Shown: piece after piece, positions 14,308 through 55,517 of the stretch
How the letters are laid out: each line of letters opens with the position of its first letter
Position numbering within the stretch: the first letter of the stretch is position 1
From: Janthinobacterium sp. PAMC25594
Lineage (GTDB): Bacteria; Pseudomonadota; Gammaproteobacteria; Burkholderiales; Burkholderiaceae_D
Assembly (NCBI RefSeq): GCF_019443505.1
Contig: NZ_CP080377.1
Coordinates: 1,984,001-2,048,000, forward strand
DNA: 64,000 nucleotides
Direction of reading: 5' to 3'
Position numbers and translations under genes: made by a program
Notes under the pieces: model-generated
What the model saw: the letters and a program-made list of their open reading frames with translations, nothing else
The model's database searches: none
What the model was told of the DNA's origin: nothing

Positions 14308-15066
14308 TTATGTGGTTTGCCGGATATGCCGGCGGCGGCGCAGGGTCGACACGCCGGCGATGCAGATGGCCAGCCAGCCATAGCTTTCCGCCATGGCCGC
14401 CAGCACATCGCTCAGGTAATGCGCGCCCAGGTAGATGCGGCTGAAACCCACGAGCGCCGCCATCAGGAAGGCCCCCAGCGCGATGGCGATGCGCTTGCCC
14501 CAGGCGCCCGGCGCCGTCTGGCAAATCAGGTAGGCAGCCAGCAAGCCGTACAGGGCCGTCGAGGTGGCCGTATGGCCACTCGGAAAGCTGTACGTGCTCA
14601 GGGCCGTCTGCAGGATGGGTTCGTCAAAGCTGGGCCGCGCGCGGACAAAAATGTACTTTAGCAGCAGGTTCAAAAACATGACGCCCGGCATGGTAATGAC
14701 CAGGGTAAACAACCAGTAGGTGGCGCCCTTGCGGTGCAGATACCAGCCCAGCAGGGTCGCCAGGGTGATGGCGCCGATCACGCCGTGCAGGTGCGTGACG
14801 ACCAGCAGGCAGCTGGTGATCCACGGCACGGCATGCTGGTTGAACCACTGCGCCACCTGCAGGTCGATCACGGTAATTTGGGCCATACCCATCACCGCTT
14901 CGGCGATCTCGTGGAACACCACGATGGCCACCAGCATCAGCGCCACGCCCACCGTCATATGCAGGCCCAGCTCGCCTTCGGGCGACAGGCGCGCCTCGAC
15001 GAAGCGCCGCAGTTTCGTGGTCCAGCCCGTGGTCATGCCCATGTCATTTTTCTCTTGCAAACTCAT
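14308..15066 (-). CDS. PAP2-family membrane phosphatase
   Basis: A 252-aa integral membrane protein with the three PAP2 active-site motifs: Lys137-x6-Arg144-Pro145, Pro-Ser-Gly-His at 162-165, and Ser209-Arg210-x5-His216-x3-Asp220. The substrate is probably a lipid phosphate (phosphatidate or undecaprenyl pyrophosphate type). It is first in an operon with a lipid kinase and a phosphoesterase, so the first two could run opposite reactions on diacylglycerol/phosphatidate. The two LexA boxes at 15118-15156 lie 52-90 bases upstream on the divergent side. Confidence 0.9.
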   Translation of the reverse strand: MSLQEKNDMGMTTGWTTKLRRFVEARLSPEGELGLHMTVGVALMLVAIVVFHEIAEAVMGMAQITVIDLQVAQWFNQHAVPWITSCLLVVTHLHGVIGAITLATLLGWYLHRKGATYWLFTLVITMPGVMFLNLLLKYIFVRARPSFDEPILQTALSTYSFPSGHTATSTALYGLLAAYLICQTAPGAWGKRIAIALGAFLMAALVGFSRIYLGAHYLSDVLAAMAESYGWLAICIAGVSTLRRRRHIRQTT

Positions 15067-15117: not shown

Positions 15118-15156
15118 TACTGTTTATTCATACAGTAGCTGTGTTTTCATACAGTA
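15118..15156 (+). promoter_or_regulatory. Two tandem LexA (SOS) boxes
   Basis: Box 1, TACTGTTTATTCATACAGTA (15118-15137), and box 2, AGCTGTGTTTTCATACAGTA (15137-15156), both fit CTGT-N8-ACAG. They start 19 bases apart, sharing one base, so two LexA dimers could bind in tandem. The boxes lie 52-90 bases before the ATG at 15208 and overlap its likely promoter region (candidate -10 TATGCT/TATTCT at 15159-15169). They also lie upstream of the divergent PAP2 gene. Confidence 0.88.
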
Positions 15157-15207
15157 GTTATGCTATTCTGATGACTCGTTCAACACATCTCCCTCAAAGG
15201 AATTGTC

Positions 15208-15432
15208 ATGGCAACATTGAATAGCGGTTTTGGCTCACGGTTCGGCCTGGAATACGCCCCAAGCTCTTTCCTCGTCCGCATGGGCAAGCGCGAAATCCTC
15301 GTCTGCCGCGACTTCCGCAAGCGCTACTACACCGTCAATCCCTTGATCGAGTGCGGTACGGGCATCGAGCCGGGCTATGTTGAAGTGCTGCTGATGCGCC
15401 GTTGGCTCCTCATTTTATCCAAGGCGCATTAA
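15208..15432 (+). CDS. Small SOS-box-controlled protein, unknown (74 aa)
   Basis: A 74-aa basic protein preceded by AAAGGAA at a good distance from the ATG. No signal peptide or full membrane helix; the sequence is basic (FRKRYYTV in the middle, LLMRRWLLILSKAH at the end). I do not recognise the family. Two strong tandem LexA boxes directly upstream are the main clue and imply induction on DNA damage. By analogy with other short LexA-controlled genes it could be a division inhibitor or DNA-damage-response modulator, but nothing in the sequence shows which. A hairpin follows the stop codon. Confidence 0.75.
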   Translation: MATLNSGFGSRFGLEYAPSSFLVRMGKREILVCRDFRKRYYTVNPLIECGTGIEPGYVEVLLMRRWLLILSKAH

Positions 15433-15538: not shown

Positions 15539-16651
15539 TTACTGCGTGCGTTCCGGTGCGGCCGGGCTGGCAGGTGTATTGGCAACAGCGTTGGCAGGCG
15601 GCAGCTTGTCGAACACATTTGCCTCGTACCACAGCGTGACGAACAGCACCATCACGACGGGGCCGATGAACAGACCCACGAGGCCCAGGGTTTCCACGCC
15701 GCCCAGAATGCCGAACAACACGGCCAGGAAGGGCAGGCGGGTGGCGTTGCCGATCATGCCGGGACGCACGAAGTGGTCGGCCACGAACAGCACCACGGTG
15801 CCCCACGCGGCCACGCCGATGGCGGCGCCCACATTGCCCTGGAAGACCAGCAAGGCGGCGGCGCACACATACGCGAGCGGCGCGCCAAACGGAATGATGG
15901 CCAGGATGCCGGTGGCAAACGCCCACAGGGCCGGCGACGGCACGCCGGCAATCGCATAGGCGATACCGATCAGCACGCCTTCGGCCAGACCCACCAGCAC
16001 CAGGCCGTTGACTGTAGCGCGGATGGCCGTCGGGATCTTTTGCGCATAGCGGCCCCACCGTTCGGGGCGCAAGAAGTGGCTGCCGACAGCCGTGATCTGA
16101 CGCGTCAGCGCTTCACCATCCTTGTAAAAGAAAAACAGGCACAAAAAGGCCAGGCCGAAGTCGACCAGGCGGTGGAATACGTCCGCGCCTAGGATTTTCA
16201 GGATGTCGCGCGCGGAATGAAAGCCGCCCACGGCGCTGCCCGCAAAGAAGTGGCCGAGGCCGTGGGGCTGGCTCAGGGTGGCTAGCCACCAGTCGCCGAT
16301 GGCGCTGCCGGCCAGCGGAATGTGCGCCACCCAGTCCGGCACGGGCAAGCCGTCGGTATTCGCATGGACGACAAAATTGGCCAGCACGGGCACTTCGCGC
16401 GCGGCCTGCGCCACGCCGAACAGCACGGGAATGATGAAGATGCAGGCGAACGCCAGGGTCAGCACGGCTGCCGCGATAATGGTGCGCTGGCCCAGCGCCG
16501 CGCGCACGCGCAGGTACAAGGGCCAGGTGGCCACGCACAGGATGCCGGCCCACACGAGCGGCAAAAAGAAACGCTGCATGACGAAGGCCGTCACGGCAAT
16601 CAAGGCCAGGGAAAAGCCTGCGCTGACGATGTCGCGCTGGGTATCGGTCAT
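15539..16651 (-). CDS. AI-2E family transporter (YdiK-like)
   Basis: A 370-aa integral membrane protein of the AI-2E/PerM (UPF0118) family. Paired N-terminal helices (FSLALIAVTAFVMQRFFLPLVWAGILCVATWPLY) are followed by a periplasmic domain, the FLCLFFFYKDG segment, and C-terminal helices including GILAIIPFGAPLAYV and the LGLVGLFIGPVVMVLF signature. Members export small molecules or ions; the substrate here is not evident. The start has GGAG just upstream. It is monocistronic. Confidence 0.9.
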   Translation of the reverse strand: MTDTQRDIVSAGFSLALIAVTAFVMQRFFLPLVWAGILCVATWPLYLRVRAALGQRTIIAAAVLTLAFACIFIIPVLFGVAQAAREVPVLANFVVHANTDGLPVPDWVAHIPLAGSAIGDWWLATLSQPHGLGHFFAGSAVGGFHSARDILKILGADVFHRLVDFGLAFLCLFFFYKDGEALTRQITAVGSHFLRPERWGRYAQKIPTAIRATVNGLVLVGLAEGVLIGIAYAIAGVPSPALWAFATGILAIIPFGAPLAYVCAAALLVFQGNVGAAIGVAAWGTVVLFVADHFVRPGMIGNATRLPFLAVLFGILGGVETLGLVGLFIGPVVMVLFVTLWYEANVFDKLPPANAVANTPASPAAPERTQ

Positions 16652-30272: not shown

Positions 30273-31756
30273 CCACCCCTTTAAAGGTGTACATTGACAG
30301 CACCGTCTTTTAATACCCGTGCCGTTGATACGTGGCGTCGCGCAACAGCGCCGGCCACGTAGCCTTTTTTTACTGTTTTTTTCGGGCCGCGAGGGTGTTT
30401 GCGCAGCGTTTTTGGTTTGGCGTAAGCGGCAATCTGAAGCAGTAATTTGCTCAGCTCTGATGCACACATGGCGTCGTAGCGCCGCCATGCTTTGGTTGGC
30501 ACAGCCATCACCATGCCGGCATAGTGCGCCCGTACCTCCACGGCCACATAAAACGGCGATAGCTCAATGCCGCTGGCAACCAAGTCGTGCGCGGTGCTTA
30601 CCGCGCGCTGCAAGACAGTCAGCACGTTATAGGCCAGGATCGCGATACCGAACGCGAACAAGGCTGCGCGCGGGTGTCCGAGAGTCTTGACTTCACTGTG
30701 CAAGACCGATTCGAGCCGCTGGAACATTGTCTCGATCCGCCAGCGCTTGCTGTATAGGCGAGCAATGGCGCGTGCGCTGAAATGCTCTTTTGGTAGATTC
30801 GTCAGTAATCGGAGAATCATTTCGCCATCGTTAGTGGGCTTGTAAAGTTGCAGTTCAATGCGACGTGATGCTACCTTCTGTCCTGTAGCTCCAGGGATGG
30901 CAACGCACTGTTCAAAGACGGCGCCGGTCGCGATTCTCCCTCGATATGTCAGCTCGTCGAGCGGTGCCGGATTGGGCGTACGACCGTGCTCACGCACGAT
31001 GAAGGCACACCCACGGCGATCCCATTCGGACAGGATCATGCGCGTGCTGAAGTTGCGATCAGCAATCCACAGGTCGCCCGGATGCGAACGCTCTAGTAAC
31101 GGCGGCATTACGGCGCGTTCCTGCGAGTGTGCATCTTCGCAAGGCTCCATATCGACGACCAGGCCCGAATCAGGGTCATACACCACAAGGGACTGGCCAG
31201 GCATTGCGGCGCCGCGAAAGGCGCGTAAAGGCTTCAACCGCTTTTCGCTTGCAGGCAAATGGTTACCGTCCACGATTCGGGTGCGGTAACCCGGAACCAG
31301 CGGTGCATTCCCCTGCAAAAATGGCGTGATCACATCTCCAAGGCGCTCGACGCTGCCGGTGACCAGAGCCCGTACCAGGTTCGGCTCGGTATGCTTGACC
31401 TTGTCATATAAAGCTTGCACCGAAACAGGCAAATCAGGGTAAGCCTGCGCTGCAGCGTGAAGCGATGGCCGCAGCCCAACTGCGACCACGGACATCAGTT
31501 CGACTGTCGTCGAGAACAGTAGCTCCCTCTGGTATTGGGCGCCACGTTCACGCTCGAACAGTGCATCGACCCAAGCAGGATCGAGGGCACGTTGCAGCGC
31601 CAGCCTTGCCATTACAGTCAGCGGGCTGATTTTTGCGCAGTGCGATACCACAGCATTCATCATCATGGCAGTTTCCTCCTGTCCCAGTTAGATGATGTTT
31701 GCTACAAAGAGTGCAGGTTTTATTTCATCTGTGGCGACGCACCTTTAAAGGGGTGG
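30273..31756 (-). mobile_element. IS4-family insertion sequence, complete, 1484 bp
   Basis: Perfect 17-bp terminal inverted repeats: CCACCCCTTTAAAGGTG at 30273-30289 and its complement at 31740-31756. A 9-bp direct repeat TTCTAAGAG flanks the element (30264-30272 and 31757-31765). The single transposase gene fills most of it, and its stop codon lies within the left repeat. The intact ends and target duplication suggest a recent, probably still mobile insertion. Confidence 0.95.
30281..31666 (-). CDS. IS4-family transposase
   Basis: A 461-aa DDE transposase. A helical N-terminal region (SPLTVMARLALQRALDPAWVDALFERERG) is followed by a catalytic core. Asp residues lie in RTRIVDGNHLPAS and DLWIADRNFSTR, and the glutamate in YSKRWRIETMFQRLES; the Y-x2-R-x3-E pattern is the IS4 signature. 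No frameshift or stop interrupts it. It is read leftward inside the IS. Confidence 0.95.
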   Translation of the reverse strand: MMMNAVVSHCAKISPLTVMARLALQRALDPAWVDALFERERGAQYQRELLFSTTVELMSVVAVGLRPSLHAAAQAYPDLPVSVQALYDKVKHTEPNLVRALVTGSVERLGDVITPFLQGNAPLVPGYRTRIVDGNHLPASEKRLKPLRAFRGAAMPGQSLVVYDPDSGLVVDMEPCEDAHSQERAVMPPLLERSHPGDLWIADRNFSTRMILSEWDRRGCAFIVREHGRTPNPAPLDELTYRGRIATGAVFEQCVAIPGATGQKVASRRIELQLYKPTNDGEMILRLLTNLPKEHFSARAIARLYSKRWRIETMFQRLESVLHSEVKTLGHPRAALFAFGIAILAYNVLTVLQRAVSTAHDLVASGIELSPFYVAVEVRAHYAGMVMAVPTKAWRRYDAMCASELSKLLLQIAAYAKPKTLRKHPRGPKKTVKKGYVAGAVARRHVSTARVLKDGAVNVHL

Positions 31757-54113: not shown

Positions 54114-54506
54114 TTATGCCGGACTTTCTTGAAACTGCTTTGCATTATCACAAATTTCATACCAAGCAGGCTTGGAGCCAACATAAACATGAAATTGCAT
54201 TCTTACCTCAGGGTCATCATCCAGACAGTTAACCGATATTGGAAATGAATCACTCTCTGAGCCAACTTCCCCCAACGAGGTTCCGCAATTTTTGCAAAAA
54301 GTTCTTGCATATTTAAAGGGAGGCTCTGGTTCATATCGTTGAATAAATTCTCGCCCCTCCAGCAAGGTAAATGAATTTTTATCAACAAAGGCCAAGGCAC
54401 TCGCTCCGGCCTTCCGACAACGAGAACAGTGACACATGCCCATCATGCTCGGGGGTGATGCCAATTCAAACTTTACTGAGCCACAGTAGCAACTACCTTT
54501 GATCAT
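54114..54506 (-). CDS. GFA-family (CENP-V/GFA) zinc protein
   Basis: A 130-aa protein with the GFA zinc-binding pattern: Cys6-x-Cys8-Gly, Cys25-x-Cys27-x2-Cys30, and Cys71-x2-Cys74. Members are called glutathione-dependent formaldehyde-activating enzymes, but most, probably including this one, are uncharacterised. AAGGA lies ahead of the ATG. The promoter overlaps a strong LexA box, so it is probably DNA-damage-inducible. Confidence 0.9.
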   Translation of the reverse strand: MIKGSCYCGSVKFELASPPSMMGMCHCSRCRKAGASALAFVDKNSFTLLEGREFIQRYEPEPPFKYARTFCKNCGTSLGEVGSESDSFPISVNCLDDDPEVRMQFHVYVGSKPAWYEICDNAKQFQESPA

Positions 54507-54529: not shown

Positions 54530-54549
54530 CACTGTATTTTTACACAGTA
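54530..54549 (-). promoter_or_regulatory. LexA (SOS) box on the GFA-gene promoter
   Basis: CACTGTATTTTTACACAGTA fits CTGT-N8-ACAG with an AT-rich centre. On the minus strand it overlaps a -10-like TAAAAA, and TTGTCT stands as a -35 about 16 bases further upstream. It lies 24 bases before the GFA ATG, an ideal place for a repressor. Confidence 0.8.
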
Positions 54550-54722: not shown

Positions 54723-55517
54723 ATGACTACTTTTACTCACTCTTCAGGCCAGCACTTATCCGTTGATGATGCCGAAATATACTTTGAAATCATAGGCAAT
54801 CCGATAAGGAGTCCATTGCTGTTACTGCACGGCGGCTTAGGCAACCTCACAGACTTCAATGGTATTGTCGGTCAACTTGCAAATGAATTTAGATTGATTG
54901 GCGTTGATTTTCGTGGGCACGGCAAGTCGATGCTCGGGAAATCCCGCTTGACCTATCAACGATATCAAGCAGATGTTGAAGCTATTCTGGCACACTTGAA
55001 CATCGATTGTTTTTCCATACTGGGCTTTAGTGACGGTGGTATCACCGCCTTGCGCATGGCCGCTGAAACCCCTGCGCGGATCAAGGGACTGGTGGCTGTG
55101 GCGGCTCAAAGTCAAATGGAAGCGGACGCCCCGATCCTTCCTATGTTAAGTGGCGTGACGGCTGATTTCTGGGAGACAAAGTTTCCCGATGCAGTCTCCT
55201 ACTACAGAGAGAACAATCCAGAACCAGACTTTGATGCGTTGATCAAATCGGTTGTATCGCTCTGGACAAATATAAAACACAGCGCTTACCCTGGCAATCT
55301 GATCAAGCAGATCACGGCACAAACGTTGCTGGTGCGTGGCGACGAAGATCATCTTTGTTCGTTAAAGTGCATCGCTGACCTACGAGATCAAATAAAAGGT
55401 TCTGCCTTCTTGAACATCCCATATGCAGGGCACGAGGTCTACAAAGATTCTCCTGTTTTATTCATGGAGGTGGTGTACGATTTTCTTATCAATCAGCTCA
55501 GTCGGAAAGCTGATTAG
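54723..55517 (+). CDS. Alpha/beta-fold hydrolase
   Basis: A 264-aa hydrolase: oxyanion-hole HGG (residues 36-38), nucleophile elbow GFSDGG with Ser103, acid Asp207 or Asp209 in VRGDEDHL, and His237 in YAGHEV. Small esterases and lipases of this kind act on soluble esters; the substrate is unknown. There is no signal peptide. Moderate GC, in keeping with the accessory region. Its 3' end overlaps an opposing frame by 60 bp. Confidence 0.88.
   Translation: MTTFTHSSGQHLSVDDAEIYFEIIGNPIRSPLLLLHGGLGNLTDFNGIVGQLANEFRLIGVDFRGHGKSMLGKSRLTYQRYQADVEAILAHLNIDCFSILGFSDGGITALRMAAETPARIKGLVAVAAQSQMEADAPILPMLSGVTADFWETKFPDAVSYYRENNPEPDFDALIKSVVSLWTNIKHSAYPGNLIKQITAQTLLVRGDEDHLCSLKCIADLRDQIKGSAFLNIPYAGHEVYKDSPVLFMEVVYDFLINQLSRKAD

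Follow-up and report, generated by a model that had tools for sequence, protein, structure and literature searches.

Does the short open reading frame (ORF) that lies behind a pair of LexA-like boxes in the window (the whole 64,000-nt stretch of Janthinobacterium DNA analysed here) belong to the SOS response of its host, and if so, what might its product do? A few model organisms have well-charted SOS responses, and individual lineages add effectors of their own. The host belongs to a large, mostly environmental family, for which we use the name Oxalobacteraceae on the basis of the names of the related loci. The small gene bears on whether a division checkpoint or a repair helper peculiar to this lineage exists. 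Among the titles and opening lines of abstracts that searches of open-licence papers listed, PMC7739468 among them, none described the protein or LexA control in these genera.

LexA boxes and transcription signals at the locus

The features of the locus are collected in Table 1. The initial annotation had described two tandem LexA boxes 19 bases apart; the boxes themselves are confirmed, but the 19 nt is the distance from start to start, and the two boxes abut, with base 15137 common to both. Box II overlies the putative −35 region and part of the spacer. It ends at a fixed distance before the pattern TGnTAnnnT, the putative extended −10 element, which recurs at the same offset in 78 of the 80 loci of the conservation set (the best of 188 relatives found in the species collection; hereafter the 80 best loci). 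A generic sigma-70 scan found no consensus promoter at this site. The position of box II fits blocking of this putative promoter.

Table 1 Features of the small gene and its surroundings (positions in the window).
Feature	Position	Strand	Description
LexA box I TACTGTTTATTCATACAGTA	15118–15137	.	TACTGT-N8-ACAGTA, 0 mismatches, both half-sites perfect
LexA box II AGCTGTGTTTTCATACAGTA	15137–15156	.	2 mismatches to TACTGTN8ACAGTA
Putative extended −10 element TGCTATTCT	15161–15169	+	Pattern TGnTAnnnT at fixed offset behind box II
Shine-Dalgarno-like AAAGGA	15196–15201	+	
ORF, 74-aa basic protein of orphan family	15208–15432	+	ATG start, 8.5 kDa, pI 9.7
Stem-loop stretch behind stop codon	15433–15485	+	−18.6 kcal/mol, z −3.7, without T-run

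Similar stretches of the AAAGGA type were present in most of the 20 upstream regions compared. At the other end, the stem-loop is possibly the end of the transcript, and it was not among the calls of the terminator scan. Since this stable stem-loop stands behind the stop codon and the next long ORF (15539–16651) points towards the 74-aa gene, the small gene looks monocistronic here.

The box pair compared with LexA sites across the genome

Within the window alone, enrichment of loose box matches over shuffled sequence was not clear: eight box-like sites with at most three mismatches were found against a shuffle mean of 5.6, and 23 of 100 shuffles reached eight. Genome-wide, sites with at most two mismatches numbered 69, below the 114 of the reversed control pattern, so single weak sites carry no meaning. 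The strict core CTGTNTNNNNANACAG, by comparison, occurred at 12 sites in the 6.55-Mb genome, the box pair accounting for two of them, and its reversed control at none. Cores of this strict form, or boxes with no more than one mismatch, also precede recA, two imuA genes and dinB (the last assignment assuming that the true dinB start lies inside the listed ORF), as well as a FAN1-type nuclease gene, vsr and a GyrB/ParE-type gene. The lexA gene of the same genome has, like the small gene, two boxes of its own, with two mismatches each; a dnaE2-like gene was recognised by eye only. Some sites lie elsewhere, for instance within a repeated ORF or before genes without a known role in damage. In the motif scan proposed by the initial annotation, the pair thus has the same box sequence as the sites of recA, lexA, imuA and dinB, and judged by this sequence identity it matches the organism's own LexA sites.

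Conservation of the boxes

The 80 best loci span Janthinobacterium, Rugamonas, Duganella, Massilia, Pseudoduganella, Herbaspirillum, Noviherbaspirillum and relatives. In all 80, the core CTGTN8ACAG was present within 300 nt upstream of the gene, and in 78 a second, looser core (CTGN10CAG) stood 18 or 19 nt further upstream. A box with at most three mismatches lay within 250 nt upstream in 79 of them, and in the remaining locus (L080) the box is at −261. With the threshold at two mismatches, the 150-nt stretch just upstream of the gene held a box in 78 of the 80 best loci and a tandem pair in 62; as background, 6221 consecutive 150-nt intervals from the same loci held such a box in 85 cases and a tandem pair in 61, counts that include the gene's own upstream intervals.

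The comparison was extended to 30 distant loci (29 genomes in 11 genera, with stretches only about 3 kb long), 29 of which have a box with at most two mismatches within 300 nt; most of them have a single box and not two. The exception (L141; G375:C35, from a 1.7-Mb genome) is a pseudogene with an in-frame TAG and a decayed box with three mismatches. Three of four further copies also carry a box, L212 being the one without it. The retention of boxes upstream of orthologues, on which the initial annotation had made its reading depend, was thus found in the 80 best loci and in nearly all of the others. Gene and control site of L141 decayed together although its genome has a lexA gene.

In the established scheme, RecA filaments formed after DNA damage stimulate the self-cleavage of LexA, and the repressed genes are released. 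Because the boxes are conserved and identical to the LexA sites of the genome, this biology makes SOS control of the small gene, and its induction by damage, highly probable. LexA dimers on the two abutting boxes would cover the −35 region and spacer of the extended −10 promoter, and RecA-stimulated cleavage of LexA upon damage would then release the gene.

The protein and its family

The ORF is real, given the AAAGGA stretch and the low pN relative to pS in Janthinobacterium (mean pN 0.008 versus mean pS 0.166 over 18 loci). Over 74 loci, pN was 0.168 and pS 0.524, the latter near saturation. Such values identify the selection on the small gene as purifying, and the earlier description of a small basic protein is upheld. 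Over 108 alignment rows the invariant residues are R24, G26, R28, E29, Y41, P45, G52, G56 and W66; conserved basic residues are R24, R28, R34, R37, K38 and R39. The protein is predicted to be all-beta, with strands at residues 21–25, 28–34, 47–51, 57–62 and 66–72 (AlphaFold). Two AlphaFold models concur on five strands, an unsure start and no long helix, at modest mean pLDDT (71.7 and 68.5). Taking selection and prediction together, the product would be a strongly basic, all-beta protein of 8.5 kDa.

That the protein matches no known family, as the initial annotation had proposed, agrees with our searches: no credible match turned up in Pfam, NCBIfam, PHROGs or the sequences of the PDB, and 37 members run against Pfam and NCBIfam at E up to 1 gave only weak matches to unrelated families. 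DinI and YebG are small SOS proteins; neither these nor other curated small SOS models of Pfam and NCBIfam matched any of the 37 members at that threshold. No homologue with known function was found in the sequence libraries searched, and comparison of the predicted models with known folds was indecisive, with no confident match.

Of 392 genomes sampled from the same taxonomic family, 305 contained a match to the protein family, distributed over 23 of 44 genera, usually as one match per genome in nearly all family genomes listed; second copies occurred in five of 29 genomes re-searched. Among 274 genomes sampled from the class, only the host genome matched, and the 399 sampled from the order yielded 12 matching genomes, all belonging to the same family, and one further, marginal match (E 0.006). 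Twenty family genomes without the gene still gave no match with a wider profile. Since there are family genomes with LexA but without the small gene, the SOS response does not require it. In PHROGs, a match to phrog_4140 (E 0.0023) came from one distant member, whose tblastn search against phages gave five weak matches (E 1 to 8), which were taken as chance.

The small protein thus differs from the products of recA, lexA, imuA and dinB in belonging to no described family and in being found in only one bacterial family. On the sequence evidence, the small gene is very probably an SOS gene peculiar to its lineage, and its product is an orphan with no known relative, kept widely in the family. 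Of the earlier suggestion of a new SOS effector, the LexA-boxed gene, the absence of a known family and the conserved boxes stand, and the effector part is a candidate role.

A candidate role in DNA repair

The neighbourhoods of some relatives contain repair genes. Five g235 genomes have a match, and in four of them (L209, L210, L211 and L216) the order is LigD-type gene, LexA box, small gene, FAN1-type VRR nuclease, DEAD_2-type helicase; the small gene here is a paralogue and the first gene behind the box of the nuclease/helicase pair. The domains come from a Pfam run on L210 only, and the L211 helicase runs off the stretch. The fifth genome (G287) has instead, close to a serine recombinase gene, the second copy L212, which is divergent and boxless. 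The g235 paralogues fall into a single clade (support 100/97), so the cluster counts as one event. The window genome has a corresponding nuclease/helicase pair (52% and 60% identical to that of g235) with its own LexA box and without the small gene. In L214 and L215, from the two g258 genomes, the small gene is followed by a UvrD helicase gene; in L213, dinB stands on the other side of the box in divergent orientation; and a RecD-like helicase gene lies upstream in two of four g251 loci (L145 and L146), while many other loci have unrelated neighbours. These repair-gene neighbours were noticed post hoc.

From these neighbourhoods and the charge of the protein, we infer, tentatively and at somewhat less than an even chance, that it is a lineage-specific SOS repair accessory. 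At sites of DNA damage or at stalled forks it would assist or tune repair enzymes of the nuclease/helicase type, and it would not be part of the adjoining lipid operon. Several results count against such a role: in most loci the genes next to it are not repair genes (a PAP2 gene lies within the fetched stretch in 74 of the 80 best loci), the g235 cluster is a single event and the fifth g235 genome lacks the arrangement, neither a homologue of known function nor a confident fold match was obtained, and family genomes with LexA can be without the gene. More specifically, and more doubtfully, the protein might be the first representative of a family, so far undescribed, of small all-beta SOS effectors in the Oxalobacteraceae. 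By binding DNA or a repair enzyme it would steer nuclease/helicase action of the FAN1 or UvrD type at crosslinks and stalled forks, and g235 bacteria would have built a copy into the nuclease's SOS cluster.

A conserved protein of unknown function is encoded directly behind the small gene in L215 (2980–3618) and L156 (1711–2439), which belong to two genera. The two proteins are 69% identical over 181 residues; the gene precedes that of UvrD in L215 and was not seen between the genes in L214.

Alternative explanations

The main rival to a repair accessory is an SOS cell-division inhibitor replacing SulA, which would block FtsZ or another part of the divisome until the damage is repaired; we consider it unlikely, though less so than the readings that follow. 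SulA, the gammaproteobacterial SOS division inhibitor, is likewise small and LexA-controlled, but in E. coli it is more than twice as long as the 74-aa protein, and none of 37 members matched the SulA model PF03846 at E up to 1. In the 44 genomes searched, no SulA turned up outside ImuA (the four PF03846 matches all lay inside ImuA genes), so the post looks vacant; it is equally vacant, however, in the 20 of these genomes that are without the small gene. Tandem boxes would also suit a product that needs tight silence. According to PMC4211646, unrelated inhibitors fill this role in other lineages. SidA and DidA of Caulobacter, YneA and SosA are described, in PMC4211646 and PMC6851548, as short damage-induced division inhibitors of single lineages; the former source places SidA and DidA in the membrane and makes DidA independent of SOS. 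The small protein, in contrast, is basic and predicted to be all-beta. As to a single transmembrane helix of the SidA/YneA type, the two AlphaFold models, at their modest pLDDT, show strands and no long helix. No cell-division gene was recognised adjoining the small gene in the loci inspected; a PBP1A-like gene, identified by eye, is near L071.

That SOS releases a toxin or the product of a domesticated mobile element, leading to growth arrest or acting in a prophage-like manner, is improbable. The serine recombinase gene adjoining the divergent copy L212 and the second copies in some genomes would agree with it, but searches of 50,697 phage and 72,556 plasmid records with the window protein (E up to 1) found nothing, purifying selection and the single match in nearly all family genomes listed point away from it, and no antitoxin-like partner was recognised.

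Still more improbable is a cofactor of the ImuA-ImuB-DnaE2 mutagenic polymerase complex. Although the imuA genes of this genome carry the same boxes, ImuA (above the curated cut-off) was present in 17 of 24 genomes with the small gene versus 13 of 20 without it, which indicates no link. Such an ImuA is missing from seven genomes with the small gene, one of which, G375, carries the pseudogene. A mutasome role is unlikely because the presence of ImuA does not follow that of the small gene. For the same reason, and because most distant loci are single-boxed, the argument of the initial annotation that tandem boxes point to an inhibitor or a mutagenic factor is not supported.

Divergently upstream of the small gene is a PAP2/kinase/phosphatase lipid operon starting at 15066 (names assigned by eye). 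The operon lies 0.9–5 kb from the small gene in L045 and L091–L094, and PAP2 was not found in L040 (a short contig), L051, L067, L071, L088, L095 or the 30 distant loci with their stretches of about 3 kb. Least probable of all is that the boxes mainly serve this operon and the small gene is a passenger: the operon is close and divergent in most of the 80 best loci, yet the boxes remain with the small gene where it is distant or not found (with the decayed box of the L141 pseudogene), and the fixed spacing of the −10 element favours the small gene. Because the boxes stay while the neighbours change, the lipid operon is not the partner; the earlier remark that it may be affected therefore fails as a conserved link, and an effect in cis is possible.

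Other LexA-boxed genes and sites

Several further sites were noted in the same genome. Two separate imuA genes are LexA-boxed (G000:C1 1816251 and 5465513). The box-like site at 31502–31521 of the window is an identical 20-mer at four places in the genome, and the two examined both lie inside the same 461-codon ORF; it is probably a repeated element and a chance site. The LexA-like box CACTGTATTTTTACACAGTA at 54530–54549, one of the 12 strict cores, lies between a GFA-type enzyme gene (54114–54506, minus strand) and an alpha/beta hydrolase-like gene (54723–55517, plus strand; hydrolase recognised by eye). Two LexA-boxed genes, L008 and L010 (G000:C1:6430328 and 1027832), encode related proteins that are 37% identical and have no Pfam match, and may represent another possible orphan SOS family in this genome.
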